64,000 nt of DNA from assembly GCA_002713145.1 (NCBI GenBank), contig PAVS01000011.1, positions 62,001-126,000 on the forward strand, read 5' to 3'. The DNA comes from Halobacteriovoraceae bacterium (GTDB lineage: Bacteria > Bdellovibrionota > Bacteriovoracia > Bacteriovoracales > Bacteriovoracaceae). Below the pieces are notes generated by a model that was not told where the DNA came from, searched no databases, and saw only the letters and a program-made list of their open reading frames with translations. This document shows, one piece after another, positions 1 to 53,455 of the stretch (position 1 is the stretch's first letter; each line of letters opens with the position of its first letter). The translations under genes and the position numbers were made by a program.

Positions 1-3000
1 GTCAATCGTCACGGTACCGTTATGAGTTCCAGTTGCCGTAGGAGTGTAACTTAATACAATAGTACAATTGTTATTTATTGAGCTTCCACAGGTTCCCCCT
101 GTTCCAGGGTAACTTCCTCCTTTGAAAGCAAAGGGAGCTGATAGGGTGGTTTCACTGATAGGTGTCGCAGTTCCACCAGTGTGGGTTATGAGAAGAGTCT
201 GATCAGCACTTCCACCTAAAGTCACATCTCCAAAATTAACAGCGGATGTTGGTGAAAAAGCAAGTGTGGTATCAAAAATATTAAAGCTCGTTGAAGTATC
301 AGAACTTAAACCCGTAGCCGATGCGCTAAGAGTGAAACCGTTATGGGCTTGATTAATACTAATATTGTTAAAAGTCGCAACACCATTCACCGCATTTTGT
401 GTCAGCGTTCCGCTAAGCGTGGCACTTCCTCCACTGGGATCAGCTCCAAAACTTAAAGTAATGGCGTCAGTAGCTGTGGCCACCAAACTATTGGTAGAAT
501 CTCTCACTTCTACAGTAAGAGAAGGAATAATGGCATTATTTATCTCAGTGTTCACCGGTTGGGTGACAAACGCTAGTTGTGTTGGGATCGCTGTGATATT
601 AAAACTTGTTGAAGTGACAGAGCTAAGTCCAGTGGCAGAGAACTGTAAAGTGTATCCAGATCCTGAATTATTAATTTGTAGATCAGAAAAACTAGCGCTT
701 CCATTGACGGCAGACACATTCGTCGTCCCACTCAGAGTTCCACTACTAGGATTATTTGCAATAGCGACAGATAAGGTATCACTATCATTCGTTTTGTTTC
801 CATAGGCATCTTGAATTTCTACGACAACAGCTGGATTGATGTTGGTATTTTTTAATGCATCACTTGGTTCTGTGGTAATCACAAGTTGAGATTTAGCCGC
901 AGCCGTAATATTAAAACTATTAGATGTGGCAGCACTTAATCCTGTAGCATTAGCGCTAAGTGTATAACCAGCAGCTGCTTTATCAATATTGATGTCACTA
1001 AAGGTCGCGACACCATTTATAGCAGCGACAGATAAAGTTCCGCCTAGGGTTCCGGAGCCAGCATTATTTGCAAAACTAAGAGTCACAGTATCAGTAGCAC
1101 TGGTGTCTCTATTATTATTTCCATCGAGAAGCTCGACAGTGATCGCTGGAGAAATATTCCCTCCAGCAATAGCATCACTTGGCCCCTGTACAAATGCCAG
1201 TTGAGTTGCAGGAGCTTGAGTAATATTAAAAGCAGTTGAGGTTGCACTGGTTAAACCGGTTGCACTAAAGCTGAAAGTATATCCGCTGTTAACCGTATCA
1301 ATACTAATGTCATTAAAAGTTGCCACACCATTTACTGCTGCTATACTTGTCGTTCCAGCGATACTTGCACTCCCACCACTTGGATCTGTTCCAAAACTTA
1401 AAGTCACAGTATCATTAGCAGAGGTAACTATATTGTTAGAGGCATCTCTAATCTCAACAGTTATAGCTGGAGCGATAACAAAATCATTATAGGTATCAGT
1501 GGGCTCACTTGTGATCACTAATTGAGTGGGAATACTAAAAATATTAAAAGAAGACGATGTTGCACCTGTTAAGCCCGTTGCATTGGCATCGAGAGTGTAA
1601 CCATCTCCCACATTGTCTATATTGAGATCACTAAAAGTAGCAAGTCCGTTCACTGCACTTACTGTCGTGGTACCACTAAGAGTTCCACTACTAGGATTAT
1701 TATTAATACTGAGAGTAATGCTATCTGTATCTGAAGTTCTATTTCCATAGCTATCCACAATTTCAACACTTACCGCCGGCGCTATATCAACTCCATATTG
1801 TGTATGACTAGGTTCTTGTGTAAAAGCCAAGGTAGCCTTCGCACCTGGAGTAATATTAAAACTTGTTGTGGTCGAGGAAGTGAGCCCACTTGCTGTTGCA
1901 TTTAAGGTGTATCCACTCGCTGCTTTATCAATGGTGATATCATTAAAGGTGGCAAGACCATTTATGGCCGCAACCGTCACAGTTCCTCCCAGGGTTGCAC
2001 TTCCACTGCTGGCATCATTAGCAAAACTCAAAGTGATATTATCAGTGGCAGTTGTCACTCTATTTCCTATAGCATCTAAAACTTCTACTGTTATAGCAGG
2101 TGAAATGACGCTTCCTGCTTGGGCGTCACTTGGCTGTTGTACTATCGCTAATTGAGTGGCTGATGCGGAAGTGATCGCGAAATCATCTGAGATAGCATCA
2201 GTTAAACCAGCGGCTTGGGCGCTTAAATTATAACCACTGGCTGCATAGTCAATGTTGATATCACTAAATGTGGCGACTCCATTAACAGCAGCTTGAGCCA
2301 GTGTCCCAGAGAGGGTTGCACTTCCGCCACTGGCATCACTGTTAAAAGAAAGAGTAATGGTATCAGTTGCTGAGGTGACGATATTTCCTGCTGAATCTTG
2401 AATTTCAACGGTGATAGCCGGCGAAATATTTACTCCTGCCACAGTATCTACCGGTTGAACATTAAAAGCGAGTTGAGTGGGAGTACCACTGGTGATTTCG
2501 AATCCATTTGAAGTTGCAGCACTAAGACCACTAGCGGATGCATCCAAAGTATAACCAGAACCAACTTTATCGATTTCAATATCATTAAATGTGGCCAGTC
2601 CATTCACAGCACTAGTGGTAAGTGTTCCACCCAGAGTCGCGGAGTAAGGATTATTATTAAAGGCGATTGTGATATCACTGGTATCAGCAGTTCTATTGCC
2701 ATAGGCATCTAAAATTTCAACGGTGATATCTGGAGAGATCACCGTATCGTATTGGGTGTCACTCGGTTCTTGCACGAAGGCCAATTGAGTGGCGGTATTG
2801 GCATCTATGTTAAAAGCATTAGAGGTGTCACTGGTGAGTCCTGTGGCACTGGCTTCGAGGGTATAACCGGATCCTGTTTTATCAAGAGATATATCTGAAA
2901 AGGTGGCCACACCTAATATTGGGGTAACCGTCAAAGTTCCACTCAGAGTTGCACTTCCACCACTAGCATCATTTGCGAGAGATAGGGTCACAGGAGATGT

Positions 3001-4950
3001 TGCGAGAATATCTAACCCTCCGTATGCATTTCGTACAGCTACTGAAATAGTAGGAGAGATAGTCTCTCCCGCCAGCTCATTACTGGGATGTCCAATAAAT
3101 TCAAGTTGGGTTGCAGGCGCAGGGGTGATGTCAAAACTATTTGAAGTTGCACTGGTCAACCCAGCAGATGTAAAACTTAGGGTATAACCAGTGTCTGCAG
3201 TATCAATACTTAAATCATTAAAGGTAGCGACACCGTTAACAGCATTTACAGTTATACTTCCGGAAAGAGAAGCGGTTCCACCACTTGGATCAGTCGCAAA
3301 ATTCACAGTCACCGCAGCAGAAGATGTATTGACTAAGGTATTAGTTGCATCTCTTAATTCAACTGTAATGGCCGGGGAAATCGTTTGCTCTGTTTCCGCG
3401 TCACTTGGTTGTTGGGTGATAACCAATTGAGTGGCCTGGTTTGCATTGACACTTACCCCGTTCATGACTGGAGCTAGTCCAGAAAAGTTAAGTATAGCTG
3501 CTGCAGATGTGAAGCTACTTACAATAGTGCCAGCATTTAAATTAAGAGAACTGCCATTAAAGGCAATACCATTTGAGTCGAGATCACTTGCACTTGGTGT
3601 GTACCTAAATGTGAGATACTTTGAATTTGATCCTGATTGATAGCTTGCATAAACATTGCCACTCTCTAGAGTGAGAGGAAGTTGTGGACTTCCAACAACT
3701 ATAACTTTTTCATTGAACTCCACCACAAAGTCCATGGTTTCACCGGTGAGATAATTATCATTGGTAGGTGCCGTGATGCTCACAATTTTAGGAAGGATTC
3801 CATAAACTTTTAGAAGGGGAGTCACTGGACTTGTGAAATCTAGTTGAGCATCTGTGCTGCTCGCATTTCTAATGCTTCCCCCATTAAGGTCAATTTCACT
3901 TTCAACTTGTATTCCAGATAAATCGAGATCATTGTTTGTTACGATATGGCGAAACTTTAAAACATCACTACCATTCCCGCTGATCAAACTGGCGTAAACA
4001 GTATTGCCACCTATATCAATGGGAAGTCTAGGAGAGCCAGTTGTGCTTACGGCTTCATTAAAAGTAATTTCAAAATCGAGCACGCCACCATTTAAATAGG
4101 TGTTATTAGTCGGTAGTTCTAGATTGGTTATATAAGGAGCCGATGTGTCTACTTGCACGTTAGGCATAGCAGTAGGAATGAAGGTTAATGCAGCACTATT
4201 TCCGGCTAGATCTTGAATGCTGCCATTATTAAGTTCAATAGGTGAAGCTAACTCAATGCCATCAGTATCGATATCTCCAGCTTCGATATCATAACTAAAA
4301 AGTAATCGATCAGTTCCTGAGCCAACTAAGTAGTGAGCATATTTAGTTGAGCCGCCGATATTTAGCTCGAGCTGTGGTGTTCCCGAGACTTCTACAAATT
4401 CATTAAACTGAACGATAAAAATCAGTTGATCATCTTCAATATAAATATCATCACTAGGATCAAGGATCCCGCTGATATTAGGAGAAGCGGTGTCCACCAT
4501 GATTCTGTCATCACTCATATTCAATGAAAAACTTAAGCTGGTTGATTGAGGGATCCCTGATGAGTAAAATTCTAAATTGCCTCCATTTAGATCAATGAGG
4601 GGGGTCAGAACTTCAATCCCATCATTATCACTATCTCCCGGCTGGACGGTATAGCGAAAGTATAAATTCCTGGTTCCATTACCTGAGCGATAAGTGGCAT
4701 ATTTTGTTTGAGAACCAATTTTAAGAATAATTCGCGGAGTTCCTGTAACGGTTTGTTTAGCAGGGTGACTCAGTTTAAAATCTATATGTTCGCCTAGGCC
4801 CAATAAAGTGTCGGATTCATAATTTACGCTGATTGAATTATCCACAGATTTGTGACCAGCGACTAAACCGCCACTAGATGACTCTTCAGAAGATTCCTGA
4901 CAAGAAGCTAGAAACAAGAATATAACAGATAGAATTAGTTTTAAGTGCAT
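1..4950 (-). CDS. Giant Ig-like repeat surface lipoprotein, C-terminus beyond window
   Basis: The frame is open from the ATG at 4950 to the window edge, giving 1650 residues without a stop. The N-terminus is a lipoprotein signal with lipobox LASC (Cys 17) followed by a Ser/Glu-rich spacer, so the protein should be anchored in the outer membrane. Residues about 35-505 hold four copies of a roughly 115-residue Ig-like module with conserved 'FNE.V...G.P.L' and 'D.D.DGI' patterns. Residues about 507-1559 hold ten copies of a 103-109-residue module ('TQL', 'ISPAITVE', 'NGVATF', 'GYTL', 'SFNIT'), a type common in large bacterial surface proteins. The final 90 residues resemble a choice-of-anchor D/ASPM-SPD-2-Hydin module. 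A role in surface contact or adhesion is inferred from architecture only. No catalytic motif is visible. Confidence 0.9.
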   Translation of the reverse strand, partial: MHLKLILSVIFLFLASCQESSEESSSGGLVAGHKSVDNSISVNYESDTLLGLGEHIDFKLSHPAKQTVTGTPRIILKIGSQTKYATYRSGNGTRNLYFRYTVQPGDSDNDGIEVLTPLIDLNGGNLEFYSSGIPQSTSLSFSLNMSDDRIMVDTASPNISGILDPSDDIYIEDDQLIFIVQFNEFVEVSGTPQLELNIGGSTKYAHYLVGSGTDRLLFSYDIEAGDIDTDGIELASPIELNNGSIQDLAGNSAALTFIPTAMPNVQVDTSAPYITNLELPTNNTYLNGGVLDFEITFNEAVSTTGSPRLPIDIGGNTVYASLISGNGSDVLKFRHIVTNNDLDLSGIQVESEIDLNGGSIRNASSTDAQLDFTSPVTPLLKVYGILPKIVSITAPTNDNYLTGETMDFVVEFNEKVIVVGSPQLPLTLESGNVYASYQSGSNSKYLTFRYTPSASDLDSNGIAFNGSSLNLNAGTIVSSFTSAAAILNFSGLAPVMNGVSVNANQATQLVITQQPSDAETEQTISPAITVELRDATNTLVNTSSAAVTVNFATDPSGGTASLSGSITVNAVNGVATFNDLSIDTADTGYTLSFTSAGLTSATSNSFDITPAPATQLEFIGHPSNELAGETISPTISVAVRNAYGGLDILATSPVTLSLANDASGGSATLSGTLTVTPILGVATFSDISLDKTGSGYTLEASATGLTSDTSNAFNIDANTATQLAFVQEPSDTQYDTVISPDITVEILDAYGNRTADTSDITIAFNNNPYSATLGGTLTTSAVNGLATFNDIEIDKVGSGYTLDASASGLSAATSNGFEITSGTPTQLAFNVQPVDTVAGVNISPAITVEIQDSAGNIVTSATDTITLSFNSDASGGSATLSGTLAQAAVNGVATFSDINIDYAASGYNLSAQAAGLTDAISDDFAITSASATQLAIVQQPSDAQAGSVISPAITVEVLDAIGNRVTTATDNITLSFANDASSGSATLGGTVTVAAINGLATFNDITIDKAASGYTLNATASGLTSSTTTSFNITPGAKATLAFTQEPSHTQYGVDIAPAVSVEIVDSYGNRTSDTDSITLSINNNPSSGTLSGTTTVSAVNGLATFSDLNIDNVGDGYTLDANATGLTGATSSSFNIFSIPTQLVITSEPTDTYNDFVIAPAITVEIRDASNNIVTSANDTVTLSFGTDPSGGSASIAGTTSIAAVNGVATFNDISIDTVNSGYTFSFSATGLTSATSTAFNITQAPATQLAFVQGPSDAIAGGNISPAITVELLDGNNNRDTSATDTVTLSFANNAGSGTLGGTLSVAAINGVATFSDINIDKAAAGYTLSANATGLSAATSNSFNITAAAKSQLVITTEPSDALKNTNINPAVVVEIQDAYGNKTNDSDTLSVAIANNPSSGTLSGTTNVSAVNGSASFSDLQINNSGSGYTLQFSATGLSSVTSTSFNITAIPTQLAFVTQPVNTEINNAIIPSLTVEVRDSTNSLVATATDAITLSFGADPSGGSATLSGTLTQNAVNGVATFNNISINQAHNGFTLSASATGLSSDTSTSFNIFDTTLAFSPTSAVNFGDVTLGGSADQTLLITHTGGTATPISETTLSAPFAFKGGSYPGTGGTCGSSINNNCTIVLSYTPTATGTHNGTVTID
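585..3432 (-). repeat. Three-domain higher-order repeat (A-B-C x3) inside the giant lipoprotein
   Basis: Ten tandem modules of 307-327 bp run from 3432 down to about 275. They fall into three classes recurring in fixed order. Class A (start 3432, 2478, 1530, 584) has 'DPSGGSA'-like loops and ends 'APA/ASA'. Class B (3118, 2159, 1207) has 'N(D/N)A' loops and ends in Ala-rich 'ANTA/GAKA/AAAK'. Class C (2791, 1837, 893) has 'DAYGN(R/K)T' and 'NNP' and ends 'GTP/SIP/AIP'. The super-period is about 950 bp: 3432-2479, 2478-1531 and 1530-585. Confidence 0.85.
3450..4850 (-). repeat. Four tandem Ig-like modules of a second type
   Basis: Four copies of about 345 bp encode modules with shared landmarks: 'FNE', 'GSPRL/GTPQL', 'YASY/YAHY', 'L.F.Y', 'D.DSNGI' and 'LNGG'. 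They precede the ten TQL-type modules and are not related to them in obvious sequence, so the protein joins two repeat families. Confidence 0.75.
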
Positions 4951-5230
4951 CTTAATTTACCAAGTGATTACCATTATTTATCGGTTCTTCTTGTTAACTA
5001 TTTTAAGGGAGTCATTGAATTTATAGGTAAATTAAGGAAGTTTTAAGTTAACCCCTCATAATTCTAGGTATTTAGAGGGTTAAGTAAATCTTAAGAATTC
5101 AATATTATCAATTTAGTTTGATCATTTTTAACAAGTATTATTGCCAATAAGTAAAATCCTGGTGATTGAAATTTGATAATATCTACCCCCCAGAGATCAA
5201 ACATGACAATTTTTGCTAAACTCTAAAGTA

Positions 5231-42974: not shown

Positions 42975-43691
42975 ATGTTTCACTTAAAATTGTTTCTCTC
43001 TTTGAGTTTTTTTAGTCTCGCTATATTTCCTCAATTCAATTCTTATGCAGCAGAAGATGATGTTTATGATTTCTCCTGGCTGGATAAAGATAAGGAAGTT
43101 TACGTTCTTCAAAATAGAAAGTTTCGTAAAAAGAATAAAGTCTATTTTGGAGGGACTGTCGGTCGATCCGTGTCTGGCGCATTTATCGATAGCACCGAAG
43201 GTAATCTTATCGCTGGTTATTTCTTTTCTGAGGATTGGGGATTAGAGTTTAGTTACACCAATGCCAACGGGCAACTCAATAAAACTCATGATGCGGTTAA
43301 TGATCAAGGTGCTGTTGCTTTTTATAAGAAGATTGAAACGGCTATGACCGCGATGCTGATGTGGGCTCCCTTTTACTCAAAAATTAACACCTTTAATAAG
43401 ATTTTTTACTACGATTGGCTATTTGGAGTAGGAGTTTCCAATATCTCAACATTAGACAACAGAAATGAATTTGATTCCGGTTCTATTGATGCTGATGAGC
43501 TGACCTCTGAATCGGAATCGGCCATTGCTTGGATGACGGGAATCAGATTTTATATCACTCAAAACTGGTCAACCAGATTAGATTTTAGGGCCACTCATGT
43601 GAATACTGAGTTTACACTACAAGGTGGTGATACAGAAAAACGTTGGAATAATTATTATAATTTCAATGTAGGGCTTAATTATTCGTTTTAA
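42975..43691 (+). CDS. Outer-membrane beta-barrel protein of the motility-type cluster
   Basis: A signal peptide (cleavage near 'NSYA') precedes a short linker and a barrel of about eight amphipathic strands ('VYFGGTVGRSVSGAF', 'GLEFSYTNANG', 'MTGIRFYI', 'NFNVGLNYSF' with C-terminal Phe). It fits the small outer-membrane barrel domain seen in myxobacterial and deltaproteobacterial gene clusters (TIGR04565-like). AAGGAAGG precedes the ATG. It heads a seven-gene unit of envelope proteins. In Myxococcus a comparable barrel (CglE) works with the gliding machinery; equivalence here is inference. Confidence 0.8.
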   Translation: MFHLKLFLSLSFFSLAIFPQFNSYAAEDDVYDFSWLDKDKEVYVLQNRKFRKKNKVYFGGTVGRSVSGAFIDSTEGNLIAGYFFSEDWGLEFSYTNANGQLNKTHDAVNDQGAVAFYKKIETAMTAMLMWAPFYSKINTFNKIFYYDWLFGVGVSNISTLDNRNEFDSGSIDADELTSESESAIAWMTGIRFYITQNWSTRLDFRATHVNTEFTLQGGDTEKRWNNYYNFNVGLNYSF

Positions 43692-43710
43692 AGTTTTTTA
43701 GGAATTTCTT

Positions 43711-45105
43711 ATGTGTAAAAGAATATTTATTTTTTTCTTACTTTGTCCGCTTGTGAGTTTTAGCTCCTGGCGAGATGCGGAAAAGACTTATGACAGCAGA
43801 CTATCGAATTCTGAATTAAGAAATATAGTTATAGAATTGGTCAAAGATAATTATGTTTTTTCAGCACTTCCTTGGATGAAAGAGTATTTGATCAAAGACA
43901 CCAAGCAACTTGATAGAAGAATCGATTCTGCCTTATCCCATATGATTTCAGTGGCCGGGACAAAACAATTTGAAACACTGCCTCTGAGATTTTTAAAACG
44001 TTCTAAGTCTGATAATATGCGTTTTATTATTGCCAAAAAATATTTGAGAGATAACGACTATTCTCGGGCCCTCAATTACCTAGAAAATATCAGCTCAAGC
44101 CATGAAGTGTTTCCTTATGCAGTTCATATGCAAGCGACCATCTATACGATTATAGGTGATACGAAAAAAGCTGATAAACTCTTTGATCGCTGTCGAACGG
44201 CGAGTGAATCACAGATTAGTCGTGATAAAAAATCGAGAAAATTAAAAATGAATAGAGATTATTGCATGGCCGGTAAAGCGCGAGCTGAGTTTAAAGATCG
44301 CAATTTTGATAAATCAGATCTGCTCTATCTCGATATTCCTAAATCCTCTCCCGTATGGCCTGAAATCTTATTTGAGGAAGCTTGGAATAGTTATTATCAA
44401 AAAAATTATAACCGTGCTCTAGGTAAGCTTGTGAGTTATAAAGCCCCTGTCTTTAACCATATGTTTAACCCAGAGATCGATGTGCTCCGTGCTCTGAGCT
44501 ATATGAAGCTTTGTCTATATTCAGATGCAAAATCAGTGGTGCAAGAGTTTTACGATAAATATTATAATGATGCTAAATCACTGAGGCTTTATCTCTTACG
44601 ACATAAAAGAGAAATTAATCATTTTTATAATAGTATGATGAATTATGAGAGTCGCTCTAAGAGTGAAAATTCTCTGCATGCTCTCATGTTAAAAAGTGTA
44701 TTAAACGAAGAAGCCTTTATTGATTTAAAACGACAGTTTGTCAGTGCCTCAAAAGAATACGATCGATTGAGACAAAGACCTAACTCACGATTCAAAAGAG
44801 CGACCATACTCAATCTTCAAGAAGCGATTGTGACTCAGAAAAGAATACTAGGAGCCTTTGTAAAACAAAGACTGCTCTATCATTACGCCACTTTATCCAA
44901 AGCTTTTGAGGGGATGAGTTATATTAATTTAGAAGTTTTATCTCAACGAAAAGCTAAGCTTTACTCTTTTGATGAAAACAATCGCTCTCGTGGTGATATT
45001 AAATATATAGAAAGAAATGAAAAGCAATACTTTTGGGATTTTAACGGTGAGTTCTGGGCCGATGAACTTGGTGATTATGTTTTTGCTTTAAGGTCGGAGT
45101 GCTAG
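43711..45105 (+). CDS. Exported TPR-like repeat protein
   Basis: The 464-residue protein starts with a signal peptide ('FIFFLLCPLVSFS'). It contains helical repeats with TPR-like spacing ('AKKYLRDNDYSRALNYLENI', 'LFEEAWNSYYQKNYNRALGKL', 'DVLRALSYMKLCLYSDAKSVV'). A basic, Arg/Lys/Ser-rich C-terminal region follows. It probably lies in the periplasm as a scaffold. It is 19 nt downstream of the barrel gene and 3 nt upstream of the next TPR gene. It could correspond to one of the TPR Glt proteins; the exact counterpart is not clear. Confidence 0.75.
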   Translation: MCKRIFIFFLLCPLVSFSSWRDAEKTYDSRLSNSELRNIVIELVKDNYVFSALPWMKEYLIKDTKQLDRRIDSALSHMISVAGTKQFETLPLRFLKRSKSDNMRFIIAKKYLRDNDYSRALNYLENISSSHEVFPYAVHMQATIYTIIGDTKKADKLFDRCRTASESQISRDKKSRKLKMNRDYCMAGKARAEFKDRNFDKSDLLYLDIPKSSPVWPEILFEEAWNSYYQKNYNRALGKLVSYKAPVFNHMFNPEIDVLRALSYMKLCLYSDAKSVVQEFYDKYYNDAKSLRLYLLRHKREINHFYNSMMNYESRSKSENSLHALMLKSVLNEEAFIDLKRQFVSASKEYDRLRQRPNSRFKRATILNLQEAIVTQKRILGAFVKQRLLYHYATLSKAFEGMSYINLEVLSQRKAKLYSFDENNRSRGDIKYIERNEKQYFWDFNGEFWADELGDYVFALRSEC

Positions 45106-45108
45106 AGA

Positions 45109-47952
45109 ATGAAAATTTTTGTTTTATTTATATTATTAACCACATCCCTTTTCGCTAATGATATTGAAAAGCGAAGGAATCAAATCCTTCAAATCGTTGA
45201 TGAAGAAATCAGTGAAGTTTCACGTTTGATGCGATCAACAAAGAAGAATCCTGATCTTATGCTGAGAATGGCGGAGTTGTATTTAGAAAAAGCCAGACTC
45301 TGGCGGGAACGAGAAAATCAACGTTATTTAAATGTTCCTATAGAGCAAAGAAGAAAAACGAGCAAGAGTAGATATTTTACTCAGAGTAATAAATATTTTA
45401 ACCAAGCGAATAAACTCTGCTTAGATATCGCTCGCAATTTTAAAAACTATAATAGACTCGGTGAAGTTTATTATATCTTAGGCTTTAACGCGAAAGAGTC
45501 TAATAACCCTAAGAGAGCCTCCCGTTATTTAGGGATTGCAACAAAAAAGACTTCGGATCCAGCAACTCGAAATAAAACAAAAGTGACCCTCGCCGAAGTT
45601 TATTATAATGAGAAAAAATATAAGAGGGCCATTCCTCTGTATGAAAGTGCTCTTGATAAAGCAGTAGATAAATGGTGGACCAAAGATGCGTTCAATCTCG
45701 CTTGGTGTTATTACCAAGTCGGACAAAAGTCTAAGGCCATTGATCTTATGAAAAAAGTTTATTCTCGCTCTGAGAATTCAAGATTTATCGATATGCGAAA
45801 TGATGTGAGACGTGATTTGGGGCTCTTTTACGCCACGTCTGGCAAAGTGGATGAAGGGGTAAGATTTTATAAATCCATTGGACTGGATCTCTCCGATAAG
45901 CTTATTTTTATTGCTGGCTCTCTTATGCAACAAGGTCAATTTGATAAAGCTGAAGAAGTCTATAATGAAGCCTATAAATTTGAAAAATCGGATCAAGGTA
46001 AAATAAAGATCCTTATTGATAAATTGCAACTCTATGAGAAAGCGACAAATCTTGGTGCCCATCAGGTAACCAGTCGGGCCCTCTATAAATATGCAAGAGA
46101 AAAGCAATTAAACTCGGATCAATTGAAAGTATTTAAATTTCAACTAGAAAAAGTCTCAGCCATTCTTCAGCGCCAAGTTATAGCTAAAACTTACAGAAGA
46201 CTTCCGAAAAAGAGACAGGAAAAAGCAAAACAAGCGATTGAGTATTTTGAATATCTCAGCCAACTTGAACCCAAAAGAGCTGATGAGTTTAAATTTTTAA
46301 AAGGGGAGACAGCGTTTGCTGCCAAACTTAATAAAGAAGCTTATCAATATTATAAAGAAGCCCTCCTTGTCAGTGAGAAACTTCCAGGGGCAAAATTTAA
46401 AGCCAAATCCATTGAAGGAATGTTGGCGGCAATTAGCTTGAGAGAAAATAAAACCACAAATAATGCGATCGAAACTTTTGAGCTCTATTTGAGAAATTGG
46501 AGTTCAGGAAACAAAGCCAAGGGGATTTATCCTAGATTATTTAATAATTATATGGCGAAAAACGATTATGCAGGTGCCAAGCGAACCCTTGATCGTTACA
46601 CTAAAAACTATCCCAAAGATTATAAAACTCAAGAGGCGATGATCGCAAAATTAATGGATGAAGATCGTAAAAAGAAAAATAATGATAATTTACGAGCATG
46701 GATTGCCATGATTGATGCAGGAAAGTATCAGGTGAGCCCTAAATTTAGAACCAAGTTAAAAGAACTCCTCACCACCTTACAAATTGAAGATGTTCAGCAA
46801 GACCTTAACAAAGGTAATAAGCGCAATGCTCTCGTTGGATATCTGGCGATTCTTAAAGATCCTTATAGCACCAAACGCAGTAAAATTAATGCTAAATATA
46901 ATCTGTCTGTGCTTTATTTTGAACTTGATGACACTAAGAATGCCTATAAGTGGTCAATTGAAGCGATGAAAGAGATGGAGAGCAAAGACGTGGTGCAATT
47001 TGCTGATTCCTTTATCACCATCGCTAATTATCTCTTTATGGCCTTGGAATTTAAAATGTCTGCCAATTTATCGGAAAATTTTATTTATAAAATATGTTCT
47101 GTAAAAAATAGTAAAAAAGATATCTCTTTTAAAAATGCTATTTTTATCTATCTTGCTGATCATGATATTGAATCTGCAAGAAGGCTGCATGATAAAGCGA
47201 GTGAGTGTAAAATTAAAAAATCCACTCGTGAGCTAGCCACATTTGAGTTAATGCGAGCTTATAAAGATAAAAAAATGTGGCAAGAGTATGAGAAGTTTGT
47301 TGAAGAGCTGGCCAAGACTAAAAATTACAAAGCTAAAATGATCGATGAGTATTTATTCTTATCAGCTCTGGCTAAACAATTTGGAAATGCGGCGAAAGAA
47401 ACAACATTTAGAAACAATGCCCGCAATCTTTATTTTTATGCTAAAAAACGCAAGGAATCTGTGTCTATGGATGCCTTGGATTATTTTGCTTCTTATGAAG
47501 TGCTGAAAATGAAAAACACTGCACAAGAAGTAAAAAATATTGAATACGCCTTTCCTGAAAAAGTCTTTCAATCGCGACAAGAGCAAAAGTTAAAATTATT
47601 GGAAAAACTGACAGGCCAGGCTTCAGAAGTTCAGGCCATCGGTTCTGGAGTGGGTATTGTGAATTCATTTAAAATCTTACACGACACTTATCTAGATGTG
47701 GCTAAAGACTTATTTGCCTTTACCCCCAAAGATAAATCTCCTGAGTATATTCAAGCTTTTAAAAAGGATATGAATACCCTTGGGGAGCAAATCAAGCAAG
47801 CTGCCAATCAATATAAAAAAGAAGCAAAGCGAGCGATTGAAAATAATGAAATTTTAAATACAAATAATTTCTACTTTCAAGAGACTCAGTATCCCGTGCG
47901 TTATTTTGGAGGTGGAAACACCCTGATCATGGATAGAGGAGGTAAACAATGA
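45109..47952 (+). CDS. Large periplasmic TPR protein (AgmK/GltI-like)
   Basis: The 947-residue protein has a signal peptide ('FILLTTSLFA') and an almost unbroken series of TPR-type helical hairpins from residue 40 to 850 ('EVYYILGFNAKESNNPKRAS', 'AFNLAWCYYQVGQKSKAI', 'KYNLSVLYFELDDTKNAYKW'). It resembles the very long TPR periplasmic proteins of the Myxococcus gliding complex (AgmK/GltI) but is shorter than AgmK. TPR arrays bind partner proteins, so it probably spans or scaffolds the periplasm. Its stop overlaps the start of the next lipoprotein gene by 4 nt. Confidence 0.8.
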   Translation: MKIFVLFILLTTSLFANDIEKRRNQILQIVDEEISEVSRLMRSTKKNPDLMLRMAELYLEKARLWRERENQRYLNVPIEQRRKTSKSRYFTQSNKYFNQANKLCLDIARNFKNYNRLGEVYYILGFNAKESNNPKRASRYLGIATKKTSDPATRNKTKVTLAEVYYNEKKYKRAIPLYESALDKAVDKWWTKDAFNLAWCYYQVGQKSKAIDLMKKVYSRSENSRFIDMRNDVRRDLGLFYATSGKVDEGVRFYKSIGLDLSDKLIFIAGSLMQQGQFDKAEEVYNEAYKFEKSDQGKIKILIDKLQLYEKATNLGAHQVTSRALYKYAREKQLNSDQLKVFKFQLEKVSAILQRQVIAKTYRRLPKKRQEKAKQAIEYFEYLSQLEPKRADEFKFLKGETAFAAKLNKEAYQYYKEALLVSEKLPGAKFKAKSIEGMLAAISLRENKTTNNAIETFELYLRNWSSGNKAKGIYPRLFNNYMAKNDYAGAKRTLDRYTKNYPKDYKTQEAMIAKLMDEDRKKKNNDNLRAWIAMIDAGKYQVSPKFRTKLKELLTTLQIEDVQQDLNKGNKRNALVGYLAILKDPYSTKRSKINAKYNLSVLYFELDDTKNAYKWSIEAMKEMESKDVVQFADSFITIANYLFMALEFKMSANLSENFIYKICSVKNSKKDISFKNAIFIYLADHDIESARRLHDKASECKIKKSTRELATFELMRAYKDKKMWQEYEKFVEELAKTKNYKAKMIDEYLFLSALAKQFGNAAKETTFRNNARNLYFYAKKRKESVSMDALDYFASYEVLKMKNTAQEVKNIEYAFPEKVFQSRQEQKLKLLEKLTGQASEVQAIGSGVGIVNSFKILHDTYLDVAKDLFAFTPKDKSPEYIQAFKKDMNTLGEQIKQAANQYKKEAKRAIENNEILNTNNFYFQETQYPVRYFGGGNTLIMDRGGKQ

Positions 47953-48842
47953 AAATTTTATTGATGCTCACTTTATCATTTCTCGTGGCCTGTAGTTCAG
48001 CTCCTAAAAAGAAGCAGTCTAAAAAAGTTGAAGATATCAAACAAGATGACTTTAAACAAATAAAGCTCGTGCCTTATGATCAACGAGATGATTATTTCGC
48101 TCAAGTGAAAAGTAAATACACGGAAATTTCGAATACCGAAAGCTTGGGACGTGTTTATGAATTTGATGGAGAAGTTGAACTCAAAGGTGTCTTAGGAAAA
48201 ATCACTCAACTCTGTTATGAGAAAGAGTTTAAAACTGCTGAAATTCTTATATCAAAAAATAATAAAAGTTATGCTAAAAACCCCATGTTTTGGAATATGG
48301 TAGGTTCTTGCTATTTGCTTCAAGATAAGCGAAGAAAAGCTCTTCTTTTTTACAATAAAGCTCTGGCCTTGAAAGCTAATTATGCCCCGGCCCTTAATAA
48401 TCTCGGGGTGATGTACATGCGAGAGGGAGATTATTCCAGGGCCTTAGTTGCCTTTAAAAAAGCCAAATCCTCGAAAGAATATAGCCGAACCCCTCGCTAT
48501 AATTTATCTCAGCTTTACTTGAACTTTGGTCTTTATAAACAAGCGGGGCAAGAACTTACAACTCTTTATTCACTTAGTCGTGATGATATTGATGTCCTTA
48601 ACATGTTGGCCACGGCCTATCTCATGAGTAATAATATCAAGGAGTCTCTCGATGTTTATTTAAGAGTGGATAGAGATTTCTTCGAAGATCCAAAATACGG
48701 TATTAATTTTGCTCTCGCTCATTATTTCTCGGGGAATAAGGAGAGAGCGGTTGATGTGATGGAAGACATCGATAAGGATAAACTCGGTGTTTGGAAAGAA
48801 TACTATTATGATGCTGCCAGACATATAGGAGCAGATATATGA
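47949..48842 (+). CDS. TPR lipoprotein (AglT/GltE-like)
   Basis: The 297-residue product has the lipoprotein signal MKILLMLTLSFLVAC (lipobox LVAC) and a Lys/Ser-rich tether. At least four TPRs follow ('FWNMVGSCYLLQDKRRKALLFYNKAL', read as pieces; 'APALNNLGVMYMREGDYSRA'; 'TPRYNLSQLYLNFGLYKQAG'). In Myxococcus, AglT is an outer-membrane TPR lipoprotein of the gliding machine; position and architecture agree. It overlaps both neighbours by 4 nt (ATGA), so translation is tightly coupled. Function by analogy only. Confidence 0.82.
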   Translation: MKILLMLTLSFLVACSSAPKKKQSKKVEDIKQDDFKQIKLVPYDQRDDYFAQVKSKYTEISNTESLGRVYEFDGEVELKGVLGKITQLCYEKEFKTAEILISKNNKSYAKNPMFWNMVGSCYLLQDKRRKALLFYNKALALKANYAPALNNLGVMYMREGDYSRALVAFKKAKSSKEYSRTPRYNLSQLYLNFGLYKQAGQELTTLYSLSRDDIDVLNMLATAYLMSNNIKESLDVYLRVDRDFFEDPKYGINFALAHYFSGNKERAVDVMEDIDKDKLGVWKEYYYDAARHIGADI

Positions 48843-49090
48843 AAACTATTTTACTTTTATGCCTTATTTTTACCACCACAAGTTTTGCTCAAAGCAGAAA
48901 AGCTCGGGTAAGATTTGAATATAAAAAGTATGAGCGTTTTGACTTTGATGCTCTTGATGTTGAAGGAAGCAGACCTTCACCTGGTGAACTCTCTATTCCC
49001 ACACGAATGCAAGGTAAACACAAAAATAAGTTACCGGAGCGTAAGAATTTTAATCGTGAGATGAAAAGAGCGATCGATACAGTTATTTAA
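48839..49090 (+). CDS. Small exported protein of the motility-type cluster (83 aa)
   Basis: A signal peptide (cleavage after 'TTTSFA') leaves a mature protein of about 65 residues, highly basic at both ends. A central 'FDFDALDVEGSRPSPGEL' motif recalls short periplasmic proteins in Myxococcus gliding loci (CglF-type), but I cannot confirm the match. The ATGA overlap with the upstream TPR lipoprotein and the 14-nt gap to the FHA gene show it is an integral part of the operon. Confidence 0.75.
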   Translation: MKTILLLCLIFTTTSFAQSRKARVRFEYKKYERFDFDALDVEGSRPSPGELSIPTRMQGKHKNKLPERKNFNREMKRAIDTVI

Positions 49091-49104
49091 CAAGGAAATA
49101 TAAA

Positions 49105-51129
49105 TTGGAAACTCAATTACCAAATTCAGAAAATTTATTTCAACTTATTTCACTAGATAAAAGTGTGAAGACGACTGGTGGAGTGTTGCGAGTCGGACGC
49201 TTTTTAGTGGGACGCGCAGAGAGTTGCGACATTATTGTCCACTCTGGAGTTGTTTCTTCTGTTCATGCCGTTGTCGAGGTCACCCCCACAGGTCTTAAAA
49301 TTTATGACATGAATTCTAAAAACGGTACTTATATTGGGAAAGAGAAAATTGTAGCTAGAGATGTTCATGTGGGGGAAGTGATATCTTTGGGAAATATTCC
49401 TTTTAAACTAGAACGTTATCAAGTTGAACAGGCCCTTCCTCCAGTGCTTGATGCCCTTGATCCTGTGAAGGGAGATGCTTCTGTTTTTAAAACGATGCCA
49501 TCCCCACCACCTTTAGAGAGCTCTGCTCCTCCAGCTGCGACACCAGATCTGCCTAGTGAAACTCCAAAAGTCACTCCAAGGCAATCGGATGAGGAAATCC
49601 CTTATATTGTTTACCCTTTATCGGCTGATCCCAACTCTGACTATTCAGAATATATTTTTGAAGATAAAGATCAACTCTATCCCATCTTTAAATATGAGAT
49701 CAATAAAAATGCGGTCGAGATAATCATTTTGCATAAAGATAAGGTTTACTCTGTGGATTATCTTCCGGATAAGAAAGCCACCTATGAAATCGCGGGGGCA
49801 AGAAAGTCTAAAAAAGCTAAAGATGTGGAATTTCCTTATTTAGGAAAAGAAGAGAGGATTCCTTTTATTGAAATTCAAGCGGGGAACTGCGTGGTTCACC
49901 AATTGCACAAATATGAAATGCTCTATCTCTCTGACAATAGCGTTAAAAAAGCCAGTGATGGTAGAGTTAACTTGCAAGAAAATGATATTGTAAAATTATC
50001 CAGTGGAGATTTAGAGATCTATGTGAGACGAGTTCCAGCTCCTCCCAAAGTGAAGCCGGCACCTTTTTTTAGAAGAGATCAACAACTAAAACGTTATCTC
50101 TTTTTAGTTTTTCTTATGGTTTTTTTACCGCTGGTCAGTCTCTACCTTTACCCTGTTGATAAGGAACTTCTCAACGAAAAAGATCCAGAGCGTATTGCCA
50201 CCATTCTTTATAAACAAAAACTTAAGGTGAATACGAATAAAACCGTGGCCCAGTCTGAGAAGAAAAAAGCAGTTAAACAAAAATCAAAACAGAAAAAAGT
50301 GTTAAAGAAGAAAACAGTTCAAAAAACACAAGCAACACCACAGAAATCTACGGCCAAAAAAACACCGACTAAGGATCCTGGAACTAAGACAGCTCCGAAA
50401 AAACAAGTGGTGAAACGAGTGAAAGATCCTAAACCAAAATCTGATCAAAAAGCAAAAGACTCTTCGAAGTCAAAGGCGAAATCAGCTCAAAAAAGAAGCC
50501 AAAGGCGTTACTCGCGAACGAATCTTAAGAGCCCTGGAAAGGTGGACACTTATAAATCGATGAATTTTAAATCAACTGTAAGTTCACTGATGGCCAAAGG
50601 TGGCTCACTCAGTGGAGCGAGAACAGCTCGCACCGACAGTGGGATGGCCATCAATAATGCTGGAGTTCAAGGGGGAGGTGTTGTCGAGACAGCAAAAACC
50701 GGAACTCAAGTGGGATCTCTTACGGGAGGAACAGAAGGTAAACTCGCTGCCACTCGAGGAAGTGAGGGGCTTACCAATAAAACTGGTGTCTATACTGCAG
50801 GGATTCCTTCTGAAACAGTTGTACTCGGTTCAATGGACCCTGATGTCATTAGAAGAATTTTACGAGAACATATTCCACAATTTAGATCATGTTATCAAAA
50901 AGAGCTCAATCGCAACTCTGCTAATATCTCTGGGCAAATCAGACTGGTCTTTACCATTGGAGCCTCTGGAGCGGTCTCGAGAGCGGGAGTTGATGGCAAC
51001 AGTTCACTCCCAGGTAATGTCAGAGGATGTGTGGTGAATGTGCTGAGAGGAATACAATTTCCAAGTCCACTTGGAGGAGGAACCGTCGATGTTAAACAAC
51101 CATTTAACTTCTATCCGAAAAGAATATAG
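49105..51129 (+). CDS. FHA-domain, single-span, TonB-like protein (PglI/GltG-like)
   Basis: A TTG start at 49105 (AAGGA upstream) is the only start available before the domain; the product is 674 residues. An FHA domain (about 20-100: 'LVGRAESCDIIVHSGVVSSVHA', in two halves; 'NSKNGTYIG') faces the cytoplasm. A second beta-rich cytoplasmic domain (about 165-310) precedes one membrane span ('YLFLVFLMVFLPLVSLYLY', about 333-351). Then come a roughly 100-residue Lys-rich periplasmic linker, a Gly/Ser/Thr-rich stretch, and a C-terminal AgmX/PglI-type TonB-like domain ('HIPQFRSCYQKEL', 'GQIRLVFTIGASGAV'). In Myxococcus GltG and GltJ of this design couple the Agl motor to outer parts. Confidence 0.88.
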   Translation: METQLPNSENLFQLISLDKSVKTTGGVLRVGRFLVGRAESCDIIVHSGVVSSVHAVVEVTPTGLKIYDMNSKNGTYIGKEKIVARDVHVGEVISLGNIPFKLERYQVEQALPPVLDALDPVKGDASVFKTMPSPPPLESSAPPAATPDLPSETPKVTPRQSDEEIPYIVYPLSADPNSDYSEYIFEDKDQLYPIFKYEINKNAVEIIILHKDKVYSVDYLPDKKATYEIAGARKSKKAKDVEFPYLGKEERIPFIEIQAGNCVVHQLHKYEMLYLSDNSVKKASDGRVNLQENDIVKLSSGDLEIYVRRVPAPPKVKPAPFFRRDQQLKRYLFLVFLMVFLPLVSLYLYPVDKELLNEKDPERIATILYKQKLKVNTNKTVAQSEKKKAVKQKSKQKKVLKKKTVQKTQATPQKSTAKKTPTKDPGTKTAPKKQVVKRVKDPKPKSDQKAKDSSKSKAKSAQKRSQRRYSRTNLKSPGKVDTYKSMNFKSTVSSLMAKGGSLSGARTARTDSGMAINNAGVQGGGVVETAKTGTQVGSLTGGTEGKLAATRGSEGLTNKTGVYTAGIPSETVVLGSMDPDVIRRILREHIPQFRSCYQKELNRNSANISGQIRLVFTIGASGAVSRAGVDGNSSLPGNVRGCVVNVLRGIQFPSPLGGGTVDVKQPFNFYPKRI

Positions 51130-51541
51130 TTTTCTTTTGGTCCTGGTGTTATGTTTCTCATGTAGCACCAGTCCGAAAAAACTGACTAAGAAATCATCCC
51201 CCCAAGCTCGGGGTGATAGCTGTGTCAGCGATCATAATTATGCAGAAGAGAAATACTTAACGACTGCGGCCAAAGCTCAGGCCAATATTTTAGCCCGTTG
51301 TTTTAAAAATTACTTACAATTTGAAGAAGACAAAAATCAAGAGATCAAAATTTGTAACACCCTGACTGTGCAACGTTCAGGTAAAGTGACATTTGTACAT
51401 ACCAGGGGCTTTAAAGGGGATCGCTTACCTAAAGATCTCAAGATGTGTATGGAACAAGAGTACTGGAAGATGAATTTTGCTCGTATGCAACTGGACAGAC
51501 GCTATACAATTCGCTTTCCTATCCATTTTAAATCTCGTTAA
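51089..51541 (+). CDS. Lipoprotein with TonB-like AgmX/PglI-type fold
   Basis: The ATG at 51089 has GGAGG eight bases upstream and lies within the last codons of the FHA gene (41-nt overlap in another frame). The 150-residue product has lipobox CFSC (signal 'EYSFLLVLVLCFSC'), a Lys/Ser tether, and a domain with the same landmarks as the C-terminus of its neighbour. 'ILARCFKNYL' parallels 'FRSCYQKEL', 'TLTVQRSGKVTFV' parallels 'VFTIGASGAVSRA', and a second Cys 'LKMCMEQ' parallels 'VRGCVVN'. It is probably an outer-membrane-anchored copy of the TonB-like domain. Function unknown. Confidence 0.75.
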   Translation: MLNNHLTSIRKEYSFLLVLVLCFSCSTSPKKLTKKSSPQARGDSCVSDHNYAEEKYLTTAAKAQANILARCFKNYLQFEEDKNQEIKICNTLTVQRSGKVTFVHTRGFKGDRLPKDLKMCMEQEYWKMNFARMQLDRRYTIRFPIHFKSR

Positions 51542-51563
51542 TCTTACATTCAAATCTTTAAAA

Positions 51564-51586
51564 GGGTCAAAATGCACTTTTGACCC
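51564..51586. promoter_or_regulatory. Perfect inverted repeat overlapping a promoter -35
   Basis: GGGTCAAAA-TGCAC-TTTTGACCC, a 9-bp stem with a 5-nt loop, 22 nt after the lipoprotein stop. Its right arm contains the TTGACC -35 of the promoter that follows. On the minus strand four T follow the hairpin, so it could also end the motor operon weakly. Confidence 0.55.
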
Positions 51587-51608
51587 GGATCTGTCTCCAT
51601 GCTAATTT
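51580..51608 (+). promoter_or_regulatory. Strong sigma70-type promoter in the convergent gap
   Basis: TTGACC (51580-51585), 17-nt spacer, TAATTT (51603-51608) preceded by TGC. It points into the gap before the convergent ExbD genes, with no annotated large gene downstream on that strand. Confidence 0.6.
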
Positions 51609-51639
51609 AAACTCTTGGGGAGAATAAAGGACTGAGACT

Positions 51640-51723
51640 TTGTATAAGCTGATTGTTTTTTATTCATTTTTGATCGCTTCAATGATTGTATCGAAGCTAC
51701 TGTTAGATCAGTTTCTGATGTAA
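51640..51723 (+). CDS. Possible 27-residue single-span membrane peptide
   Basis: A TTG at 51640 follows AAAGG by nine bases. It opens a 27-codon frame ending at TAA 51723, four bases before the stop of the convergent ExbD gene. The peptide is one hydrophobic helix ('LIVFYSFLIASMIVSKLLL') with a Lys at the start and Lys/Asp near the end. A well-formed promoter lies 31 nt upstream. Alternatively the transcript is a small RNA antisense to the ExbD gene. Too short to judge by coding statistics. Confidence 0.35.
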   Translation: MYKLIVFYSFLIASMIVSKLLLDQFLM

Positions 51724-51726
51724 GCT

Positions 51727-52248
51727 CTAATCTTCTTCGCTTAGAACGACGAATTTATAAGTCTTAAAACCCGCCTCAGCACAAGTGTACATGATTTTTT
51801 TCACATAGCTGTACTTTAACGTTTTATCAATGATGAGATTGGCCACCCCAGAGAATTCTTTGGCAACATCAGGTTCTTGACGGTTAAGAGTTTTAATCTC
51901 TTCTACTTTTTTAACCAGGTTATTGTAAAGAGGGTTGATAAGCCTTCCCCCATGGCCATAGACATTTTTATTATCATCAGTGGCTTCGAAAATAGTCTCT
52001 GAATCTACCCAAATTTTATCTTTGGATACTTGGATCATCACCCCGGCACTATTGAGAGAATCGGATTTAGAGTAGGGAAGTTTAATCTCTTTGGGTACTT
52101 CAACGGTGATCCCAGAGGAGTTATAAGATTTAAGTAAAAAAACCAGAAGAATAACCAAAATATCTAAGAGAGAAGTGATATCGATCTCAAAGTGTCTATT
52201 CTTTACGTGTCTTTGTTTTTTGTTTCTAATACTTCGTTTTCTAGACAT
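51727..52248 (-). CDS. ExbD/TolR-type motor protein (second copy)
   Basis: The 173-residue protein has a basic cytoplasmic N-terminus ('RKRSIRNKKQRHVKNRH'), one membrane span with the conserved Asp ('EIDITSLLDILVILLVFLL'), and a periplasmic domain. ExbD/TolR proteins form proton-conducting stators with ExbB/TolQ. It is the last gene of an exbB-exbD-exbD operon, 1 nt after its neighbour. The one-TolQ, two-TolR arrangement is like Myxococcus AglR-AglQ-AglS, the gliding motor. Confidence 0.9.
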   Translation of the reverse strand: MSRKRSIRNKKQRHVKNRHFEIDITSLLDILVILLVFLLKSYNSSGITVEVPKEIKLPYSKSDSLNSAGVMIQVSKDKIWVDSETIFEATDDNKNVYGHGGRLINPLYNNLVKKVEEIKTLNRQEPDVAKEFSGVANLIIDKTLKYSYVKKIMYTCAEAGFKTYKFVVLSEED

Positions 52249-52249
52249 A

Positions 52250-52792
52250 TTAACTCATTATGTTTCCAAAAATAATTTTATGAAAGAGAAAGCGGACTTG
52301 AACATCAATCCCATCTTTGTCTTTTTTAAACATAGTTTCATCGGTATTTCTAAGTTTTCGAGTGGCATCCATGATGAGGACAATTTCCTCATAACTCAAA
52401 TCTGCTTTGGGCTCCAAGATAACTTGTTCTTCCCCCAAGTTTTGTTTTTTAATTTTGACCAGCTCGTTGTGAAGAGTATCTAAGTCATACTCACCTTCGA
52501 TATTACGAACTTCGATATTTCTATCTTTAGTTCCACCTCTTGAGTTCTGGAGCTGAACAAGAATATTATTTTTGTTGATGACCAACGTCAGCATAAAAGG
52601 TGGCTTATCATCTTTAGGGGGAGGAGTCGTTGACACTATAGGCACGTCTGAGCCAATCTCAAAAATTTTTACAAACTGAGTAGACATAAGTAAGAAAAAT
52701 ATAAAGATAAAAACCGCATCCAGAATAGGAATAAGATTGATTCCCTCTTCTGTACGCTTCGCTTTTCTGCTTGTTGGTGTTCTATAGGCCAT
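52250..52792 (-). CDS. ExbD/TolR-type motor protein (first copy)
   Basis: The 180-residue protein has a short basic N-terminus, then 'INLIPILDAVFIFIFFLLM' with the proton-carrying Asp in the single span, and a periplasmic region with 'VQLQNSRGG' and 'DLSYEEIVLIMDATRKL', a TolR/ExbD C-terminal pattern. It should pair with the ExbB protein just upstream (9-nt gap) and the second ExbD downstream. The periplasmic domains of the two ExbD proteins differ considerably, so they probably bind different targets. Confidence 0.9.
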   Translation of the reverse strand: MAYRTPTSRKAKRTEEGINLIPILDAVFIFIFFLLMSTQFVKIFEIGSDVPIVSTTPPPKDDKPPFMLTLVINKNNILVQLQNSRGGTKDRNIEVRNIEGEYDLDTLHNELVKIKKQNLGEEQVILEPKADLSYEEIVLIMDATRKLRNTDETMFKKDKDGIDVQVRFLFHKIIFGNIMS

Positions 52793-52801
52793 AAGTATCT
52801 C

Positions 52802-53455
52802 TTATTCAGATTTCTCTTTCGTTCCTAATAAATCTAAAAGCTTTACACTAAATTCATCTATTTCATTGATGATTTTATCTGCTTTCGAGCTAAGGAAAGC
52901 ATGAAGAATCATAATGGTGATAGCTGCTGATAGACCTAAGAAAGTCGTATTCATCGCAGTCGAAATACCTTCTGCCAGGATCTGAGCTTTTTGAGCAGGG
53001 TCAACATTAGCAACTGCGCTAAATGATTTCATAAGACCTTGGATGGTCCCGAGAAGACCAAAAAGAGTTGAAATATTAGCAATAAGTTGTAAATAGTTTA
53101 AACGTAGCTCAACTTTAGGCACCACTTCTAAGGCGGAAGCGTCGAGAGCATTTTGAATTTGCTCTGTTCCTTGATTGGCACGCTTGAGTCCATTTTTTAA
53201 AACACGTGGCAACGCTGCTTGTGTTCCAGAGCAAACTCTAATTGCCCCTTGGATATCATTCGATAAAACGTATCTTTGAATCTCATTCATAAAAGAAGGA
53301 CCATCAACGTCATAATTTTTTGATAATTTTTTGAATCTCTCTAGAGCGATCGCAATACCGACTCCCCAAATCACAAGAATAACTCCCATGAATATTCCAC
53401 CTGCCTGAATAAAGGCAGATATTTGCATCACTAAATTGGCTTCATTACCTTCCAT
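52802..53455 (-). CDS. MotA/TolQ/ExbB proton-channel protein
   Basis: I choose the ATG at 53455, which has GGGAG five bases upstream; a GTG at 53467 would put that sequence inside the gene. The 217-residue product has three membrane segments: residues about 10-30, 'LRLNYLQLIANISTLFGLLGTIQGLM' (in two pieces) and 'GISTAMNTTFLGLSAAITIMIL'. The TolQ/ExbB hallmark 'LLGTIQGLMKSF' is present. It forms the ion channel with the ExbD proteins. Its closeness to the FHA/TonB-like cluster supports an Agl-type motor. Confidence 0.92.
   Translation of the reverse strand: MEGNEANLVMQISAFIQAGGIFMGVILVIWGVGIAIALERFKKLSKNYDVDGPSFMNEIQRYVLSNDIQGAIRVCSGTQAALPRVLKNGLKRANQGTEQIQNALDASALEVVPKVELRLNYLQLIANISTLFGLLGTIQGLMKSFSAVANVDPAQKAQILAEGISTAMNTTFLGLSAAITIMILHAFLSSKADKIINEIDEFSVKLLDLLGTKEKSE

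Follow-up and report, generated by a model that had tools for sequence, protein, structure and literature searches.

A ten-gene locus of a Halobacteriovoraceae bacterium, arranged in two convergent operons, very probably encodes a single Agl/Glt-type trans-envelope machine

In the 64,000-nucleotide stretch of a Halobacteriovoraceae bacterium genome analysed here (contig PAVS01000011.1; hereafter the window, whose numbering is used throughout), ten genes, named A to J, form two convergent operons, a + strand operon of seven genes (42975-51541) and a - strand motor operon of three genes (51727-53455). Their sequences make us highly confident that the ten-gene locus encodes one machine of the Agl/Glt (expanded core complex) family. 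The earlier note on this DNA had proposed an Agl/Glt-like proton-driven trans-envelope machine, and this claim is supported by the matches to GltC, GltG, CglF and AgmX/PglI-tail profiles presented below; all ten genes were found at the positions that it gave. As to function, we place a non-gliding or shared Glt/Nfs-like surface transport slightly ahead of a dedicated gliding engine.

The motor part of the core complex was found in one block on the - strand. Gene J (52802-53455, 217 amino acids (aa); PF01618, expectation value (E) 9.6e-26) encodes a TolQ/ExbB/MotA-like motor channel, corresponding to AglR, and genes I (52250-52792, 180 aa; PF02472, E 8.6e-13) and H (51727-52248, 173 aa; PF02472, E 1e-14) encode the first and second TolR/ExbD-like stator proteins, which correspond to AglQ and AglS. 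On the + strand, gene F (49105-51129, 674 aa) encodes a GltG-like force transducer with the GltG-type layout of a transmembrane (TM) helix, an FHA domain and a TonB-like tail, and it matched NF033760 gliding_GltG (E 1.4e-37), NF033768 myxo_SS_tail, i.e. the AgmX/PglI tail (E 1.5e-20), and FHA (E 8e-14). Gene B (43711-45105, 464 aa) encodes a GltC-like exported protein that matched NF033756 gliding_GltC with an E of 3.9e-26 and 92 bits, and this GltC model gave zero matches in 14 control genomes. The product of gene E (48839-49090, 83 aa), CglF/GltF-like and exported, matched NF033764 gliding_CglF over its full length (E 1.4e-5), CglF being another name for GltF (PMC4488436), and the gene is present in 34 of the 40 whole-genome loci examined.

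The remaining genes of the + strand operon encode further envelope proteins. In profile searches, gene A (42975-43691, 238 aa), an outer-membrane beta-barrel gene in the GltA/GltB position, matched TIGR04565 OMP_myx_plus (E 3.2e-24) and Pfam OMP_b-brl (E 5e-8); of the group A extras of Bdellovibrio and Myxococcus, GltF and the GltA/B barrels, the locus has the CglF (GltF) homologue and a single barrel gene. Gene C (45109-47952, 947 aa), in the GltD position, encodes an exported TPR protein that matched many TPR models (best 7e-15) and gave no match to the GltD model, and gene D (47949-48842, 297 aa), in the GltE position, encodes a TPR lipoprotein with the lipobox LVAC, matches to TPR models and a weak match to NF033758 gliding_GltE (E 1.6e-4). 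Gene G (51089-51541, 150 aa) encodes a lipoprotein with a TonB-like domain and is described further below. Two points weigh against the family assignment. The equivalog cut-offs were missed, with 92 of 450 bits for GltC and 129.5 of 650 bits for GltG, and genes B and F are therefore homologues or relatives rather than certified equivalents. Moreover, gene C would be a GltD only by virtue of its position, its TPR content and its counterpart in HD100.

The gene order is kept across the family Bacteriovoracaceae. In almost all contigs of sufficient length, an addA-like gene is followed by A-B-C-D-E-F, which converges on H-I-J preceded in turn on the opposite strand by gmhA and trx; 69 such convergent loci were counted, some contigs having been entered twice. 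Because dozens of related contigs show this order, the arrangement is not due to chance, and the loss of synteny with the TPR and FHA genes in relatives, which would have spoken against the earlier proposal, was not observed. Of the 28 family genomes with a completeness of 90% or more, 23 have a window-type GltG. Five nearly complete family genomes (G017, G022, G025, G027 and G031) are without it, and these organisms, if culturable, amount to natural knock-outs.

Three relatives (L139, L152 and L158) carry the genes as one co-directional operon, A-B-C-D-E-F-J-I-H, and the flanks of L139 match those of the window locus, with the addA-like gene before and trx, RDD and polA after. The same co-directional order occurs at the 787 kb locus (L186) of an HD100-like single-contig genome. 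From its gene-number position, we take this locus to be Bd0828-0838 of B. bacteriovorus HD100. In addition, the window set has the same grouping in the trees of J (TolQ), B (GltC) and the tail of F (GltG), both for the relatives that cluster with it and for the paralogous sets that lie next to it, and this match between motor and envelope trees indicates that both operons make one machine whose parts have travelled together. The claim that the two convergent operons belong together is thus borne out by the co-directional relatives and by the three trees. Judging from these arrangements, the simplest history is that the window layout, found in most Bacteriovoracaceae, derives from an ancestral single operon by inversion in place of the motor block, which means that one machine can be encoded by two convergent operons.

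A comparison with the 787 kb set (probably Bd0828-0838, PMC3169522) revealed that each of the nine genes (A-F and J-I-H) has a homologous counterpart there (hhalign probability 97-100), including barrel A (99.6), C (100 over 877 columns) and D (99.7), and that neither locus encodes equivalents of GltH, GltI, GltJ or GltK. The gene order of the 787 kb set is the ancestral co-directional one of L139, L152 and L158, whereas the window locus differs by its inverted, convergent motor block and by its extra TonB-like lipoprotein. The two sets are deeply diverged, their proteins sharing 17-37% identity, and the motors fall in separate tree clades. A direct orthology of the window motor with that of Bd0828-0838 is not supported by the motor tree, which, with long branches, groups the window clade with the bd1480-type set.

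The residues expected of a proton-driven motor are well conserved. The membrane Asp29 of the gene H product is kept in 119 of 120 homologues, the membrane Asp25 of the gene I product in nearly all window-type homologues, and T137 and T171 of the gene J product, the proton-path threonines of TolQ/ExbB, in all 128 homologues (128/128). That this TolQ has no equivalent of ExbB Glu176 at first seemed notable and was then dismissed, since the residue at this position differs widely among family members (K, V, T, E, H). In two other sets, that of L187 (12344-15320; the HD100-like 1.40 Mb set) and that of L079, one TolR-like protein lacks the membrane Asp (LAPLLAVMV vs PILDAV), and these sequences suggest that proton transport in those sets is confined to one TolR subunit of the pair. 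The AlphaFold2 model of the gene F product (mean predicted local distance difference test score (pLDDT) 64, domains above 80) comprises the FHA domain, a second beta domain, a TM helix at 326-348, a long disordered linker and the TonB-like tail, a modelled layout that is that of a TonB/TolA-type force transducer combined with a predicted cytoplasmic FHA sensor.

We propose that the TolQ protein (J) would form a channel ring surrounding the two TolR proteins (I and H), and that proton flow along the membrane Asp/Thr pathway would drive the GltG protein (F). The single helix of the latter would span the inner membrane, leaving the FHA domain in the cytoplasm and the TonB-like tail in the periplasm, and force would be relayed to the outer membrane through the periplasmic TPR proteins B and C, the lipoproteins D and G, the CglF-like protein E and the barrel A. 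By analogy with the Glt (gliding) and Nfs (spore coat) machines of Myxococcus, the output is most likely a directed movement of outer-membrane or surface material. In Myxococcus, gliding and the assembly of the spore coat are both powered by protons that pass through AglRQS, the proton channel is required for motility and sporulation, and AglR binds both GltG and NfsG (PMC3858216). The window set shares with AglRQS-GltA-K of Myxococcus xanthus a TolQ and two TolR proteins, GltC, GltG, CglF (GltF), TPR proteins and a barrel, but the Myxococcus genes lie in three clusters (G1, G2 and M1) and GltH, GltI, GltJ and GltK are also needed there; a GltJ-like protein with GYF and tail was not seen in the source genome. 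The Nfs spore-coat machine (PMC3858216) is likewise a Glt-paralogous envelope complex with the same motor type and an output other than motility, although Nfs borrows AglRQS and has no motor of its own, whereas the window set has its own motor.

The source genome, a 3.75 Mb draft in 25 contigs, contains several such machines. Its nearest contigs, among the best 80 of 548 matches (these 80 all from Bdellovibrionota), belong to Halobacteriovoraceae and Bacteriovoracaceae metagenome-assembled genomes whose TolQ is about 80% identical, and from this kinship a predatory lifestyle of the source organism is likely. Together with the window set, three further sets on contigs C1, C2 and C15 make four full sets, and these three have the order A-B-E-J-I-H-C-D-F in one operon with the motor inside. 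A fifth, diverged core-complex set on contig C3 (L047:7175-18484) has the order TolQ-TolR-TolR, a 916-aa protein, a CglF-like protein and a 398-aa protein, followed by a GltC-like gene and a MIDAS-adhesin gene; the 398-aa protein carries a strong AgmX/PglI tail, which scored 134 bits with the Myxococcus GltG model vs 129.5 bits for the gene F tail. The earlier view that a compact, united locus is unusual does not hold, given the three other single-operon sets of this genome and the report that core complexes outside Myxococcus sit in single loci (Luciano et al. 2011, PMC3169522). Four expanded Agl/Glt sets have been published for Bdellovibrio (Luciano et al. 2011, PMC3169522), so the multiplicity seen in the source genome was already known. 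Earlier publications thus cover this type of machine, its occurrence in Bdellovibrio and its encoding in a single locus; for the Bacteriovoracaceae locus, the inverted motor and the adhesin split described below, no description was found in a literature search of incomplete coverage.

According to a 2026 review (PMC13104615), the engine by which Bdellovibrio-like predators glide has yet to be identified, and the window set might be the dedicated gliding engine of its organism, served by an adhesin from elsewhere in the genome, a reading that we regard as a serious possibility, though not the preferred one. It would account for the full complement of core Agl/Glt parts and for the wide presence of the window-type GltG in the family, and it is consistent with the facts that Bdellovibrio glides, that Bd0828-0838, the best gliding candidate of Luciano 2011, has the ancestral order also seen here (PMC3169522), and that the source genome has a recR-adjacent MglA-like gene and MIDAS adhesins elsewhere, so that such an adhesin could serve the window set. 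Against it stands the distribution of the adhesin genes. These match NF052240 MIDASAdhsBdello, that of C15 also matching CglD, and a MIDAS/vWA gene adjoins the C1, C15 and C3 sets of the source genome itself, the Halobacteriovorax sets L160, L161 and L163, and three of the four HD100-like sets (L185, L187 and L188). When distinct loci whose sequence extends 2.5 kb or more upstream of gene B were searched with a profile built from MIDAS/vWA adhesins, an adhesin gene was adjacent to 8 of the 11 sets whose motor precedes C-D-F and to none of 15 convergent and none of 8 motor-last sets, counts that refer to loci related by descent and not independent. This pattern argues against taking the window set as the gliding engine by default. 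The window motor is also nearer to the bd1480-type set than to Bd0828-0838 in the motor tree, and the locus lacks genes for equivalents of GltH, GltI, GltJ and GltK.

We therefore favour the adhesin-linked paralogues as better gliding candidates than the window set, for which the Glt/Nfs-like surface transport proposed above is retained. The adhesin-linked sets (C1, C15, Halobacteriovorax L161 and the HD100-like 1.40 Mb bd1480 set) share the gene families and the tree neighbourhood of the window set, but they have the order A-B-E-J-I-H-C-D-F in Bacteriovoracia, with the motor inside the operon and a MIDAS/vWA gene adjacent. The adhesin of L187 is probably Bd1483, which is next in number to bd1480. 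The latter is a surface-induced aglQ gene (PMC9140294), and deletion of bd1483 left predation normal, a result that does not cover gliding (PMC11003981). Sorting the paralogous sets by architecture and adhesin linkage in this way yields a short list for the question of which of the four sets drives gliding. More tentatively, and taken as a whole rather doubtful, the Bdellovibrionota might possess two functional Agl/Glt classes distinguished by architecture, motor-before-C-D-F with an adhesin and motor-last or convergent without one. The former would serve cell movement or prey grip, the latter would move other cargo, e.g. envelope polymer during the predatory cycle, and the second TonB-like domain, anchored in the outer membrane, that was added in Bacteriovoracia (gene G) would be a possible docking partner.

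A few observations concern the neighbours of these paralogous sets. In the adhesin-linked sets of C1 and C15, a gene for a protein resembling mechanosensitive channels (MS_channel_2nd) lies directly 3' of GltG (L045:6901-7623 and L046:10766-11596). On C2, about 9 kb from the Glt-like set, the MglA-like GTPase gene (L210:1465-2067, - strand; GPGLGGKTT motif, Arf family, E 1.9e-8) adjoins recR, and at the MglB position a neighbouring gene (L210:2057-2536, - strand) encodes a 159-aa protein with no Pfam family. The same arrangement was reportedly described in Bacteriovorax marinus by Milner in 2014.

Three observations would fit a Tol-Pal or TonB nutrient uptake system with unrelated TPR neighbours: the motor is built of TolQ/TolR superfamily proteins, gene J matches TIGR02796 tolQ with an E of 2.2e-17, and all solved-structure relatives are TolQ or ExbB; no solved structure of an Agl/Glt motor was found, only TolQ/ExbB/ExbD structures. 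Nevertheless, the scores for tolQ (63.5 of 221 bits) and exbB (32.1 of 206 bits) lie far under the equivalog cut-offs, profile searches of the locus brought up neither TolA, TolB or Pal nor a TonB-dependent receptor, and GltC, GltG and CglF homologues adjoin the motor throughout the family. The best profile hits are hence not confined to TonB/Tol systems, which was the outcome that the earlier note had named as damaging to its proposal, and an uptake identity, rejected on profile scores and synteny, is very improbable. Equally remote is the idea that the two operons are unrelated neighbours, to which their opposite strands, the 185 bases between them and the presence of other genes between the operons in some relatives (L053, L058 and L069) might point, since they form one co-directional cluster in L139, L152, L158 and the HD100-like locus and the motor tree agrees with the GltG and GltC trees.

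Gene G carries the same AgmX/PglI tail as gene F (NF033768, E 3e-4). The domain predicted by AlphaFold2 (helix-strand-strand-helix-strand, pLDDT over 90) repeats the topology of the GltG tail, and in Foldseek TonB and TolA domains ranked first, TonB with an E of 0.037 and none below 0.03. C71, C89 and C120 are invariant. Among the whole-genome loci examined, orthologues occur only in the five closest relatives, and in some other members of the family short tail proteins are encoded at other places in the genome. Gene G is thus assigned as a lineage-specific TonB-like lipoprotein. Conceivably it arose by capture of a copy of the GltG tail and, tethered to the outer membrane, would serve in docking or locking.

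The gaps within the operons range from -4 to +19 bases, except that gene G overlaps gene F by 41 bases. The gene list of the earlier note stood for all ten genes, and only the starts of two of them were changed; gene G most likely starts at the ATG at 51089, and gene J (TolQ) most likely at the ATG at 53455, which lies behind a ribosome-binding-site-like sequence. The 185 bases that separate the converging operons (51542-51726) contain, near 51565-51587, a 9-bp perfect inverted repeat with a 5-base loop, GGGTCAAAA-tgcac-TTTTGACCC, possibly a terminator common to both operons. This repeat escaped the terminator scan because of its high AT content, and the promoter and terminator scans of the sequence gave counts close to those of shuffled sequence. 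In the first 5000 bases of the window (1-5000), the - strand encodes pieces of a long, repetitive protein with SASGLSAATSNGFEI-type repeats, which run off the window start and possibly belong to a large surface protein.

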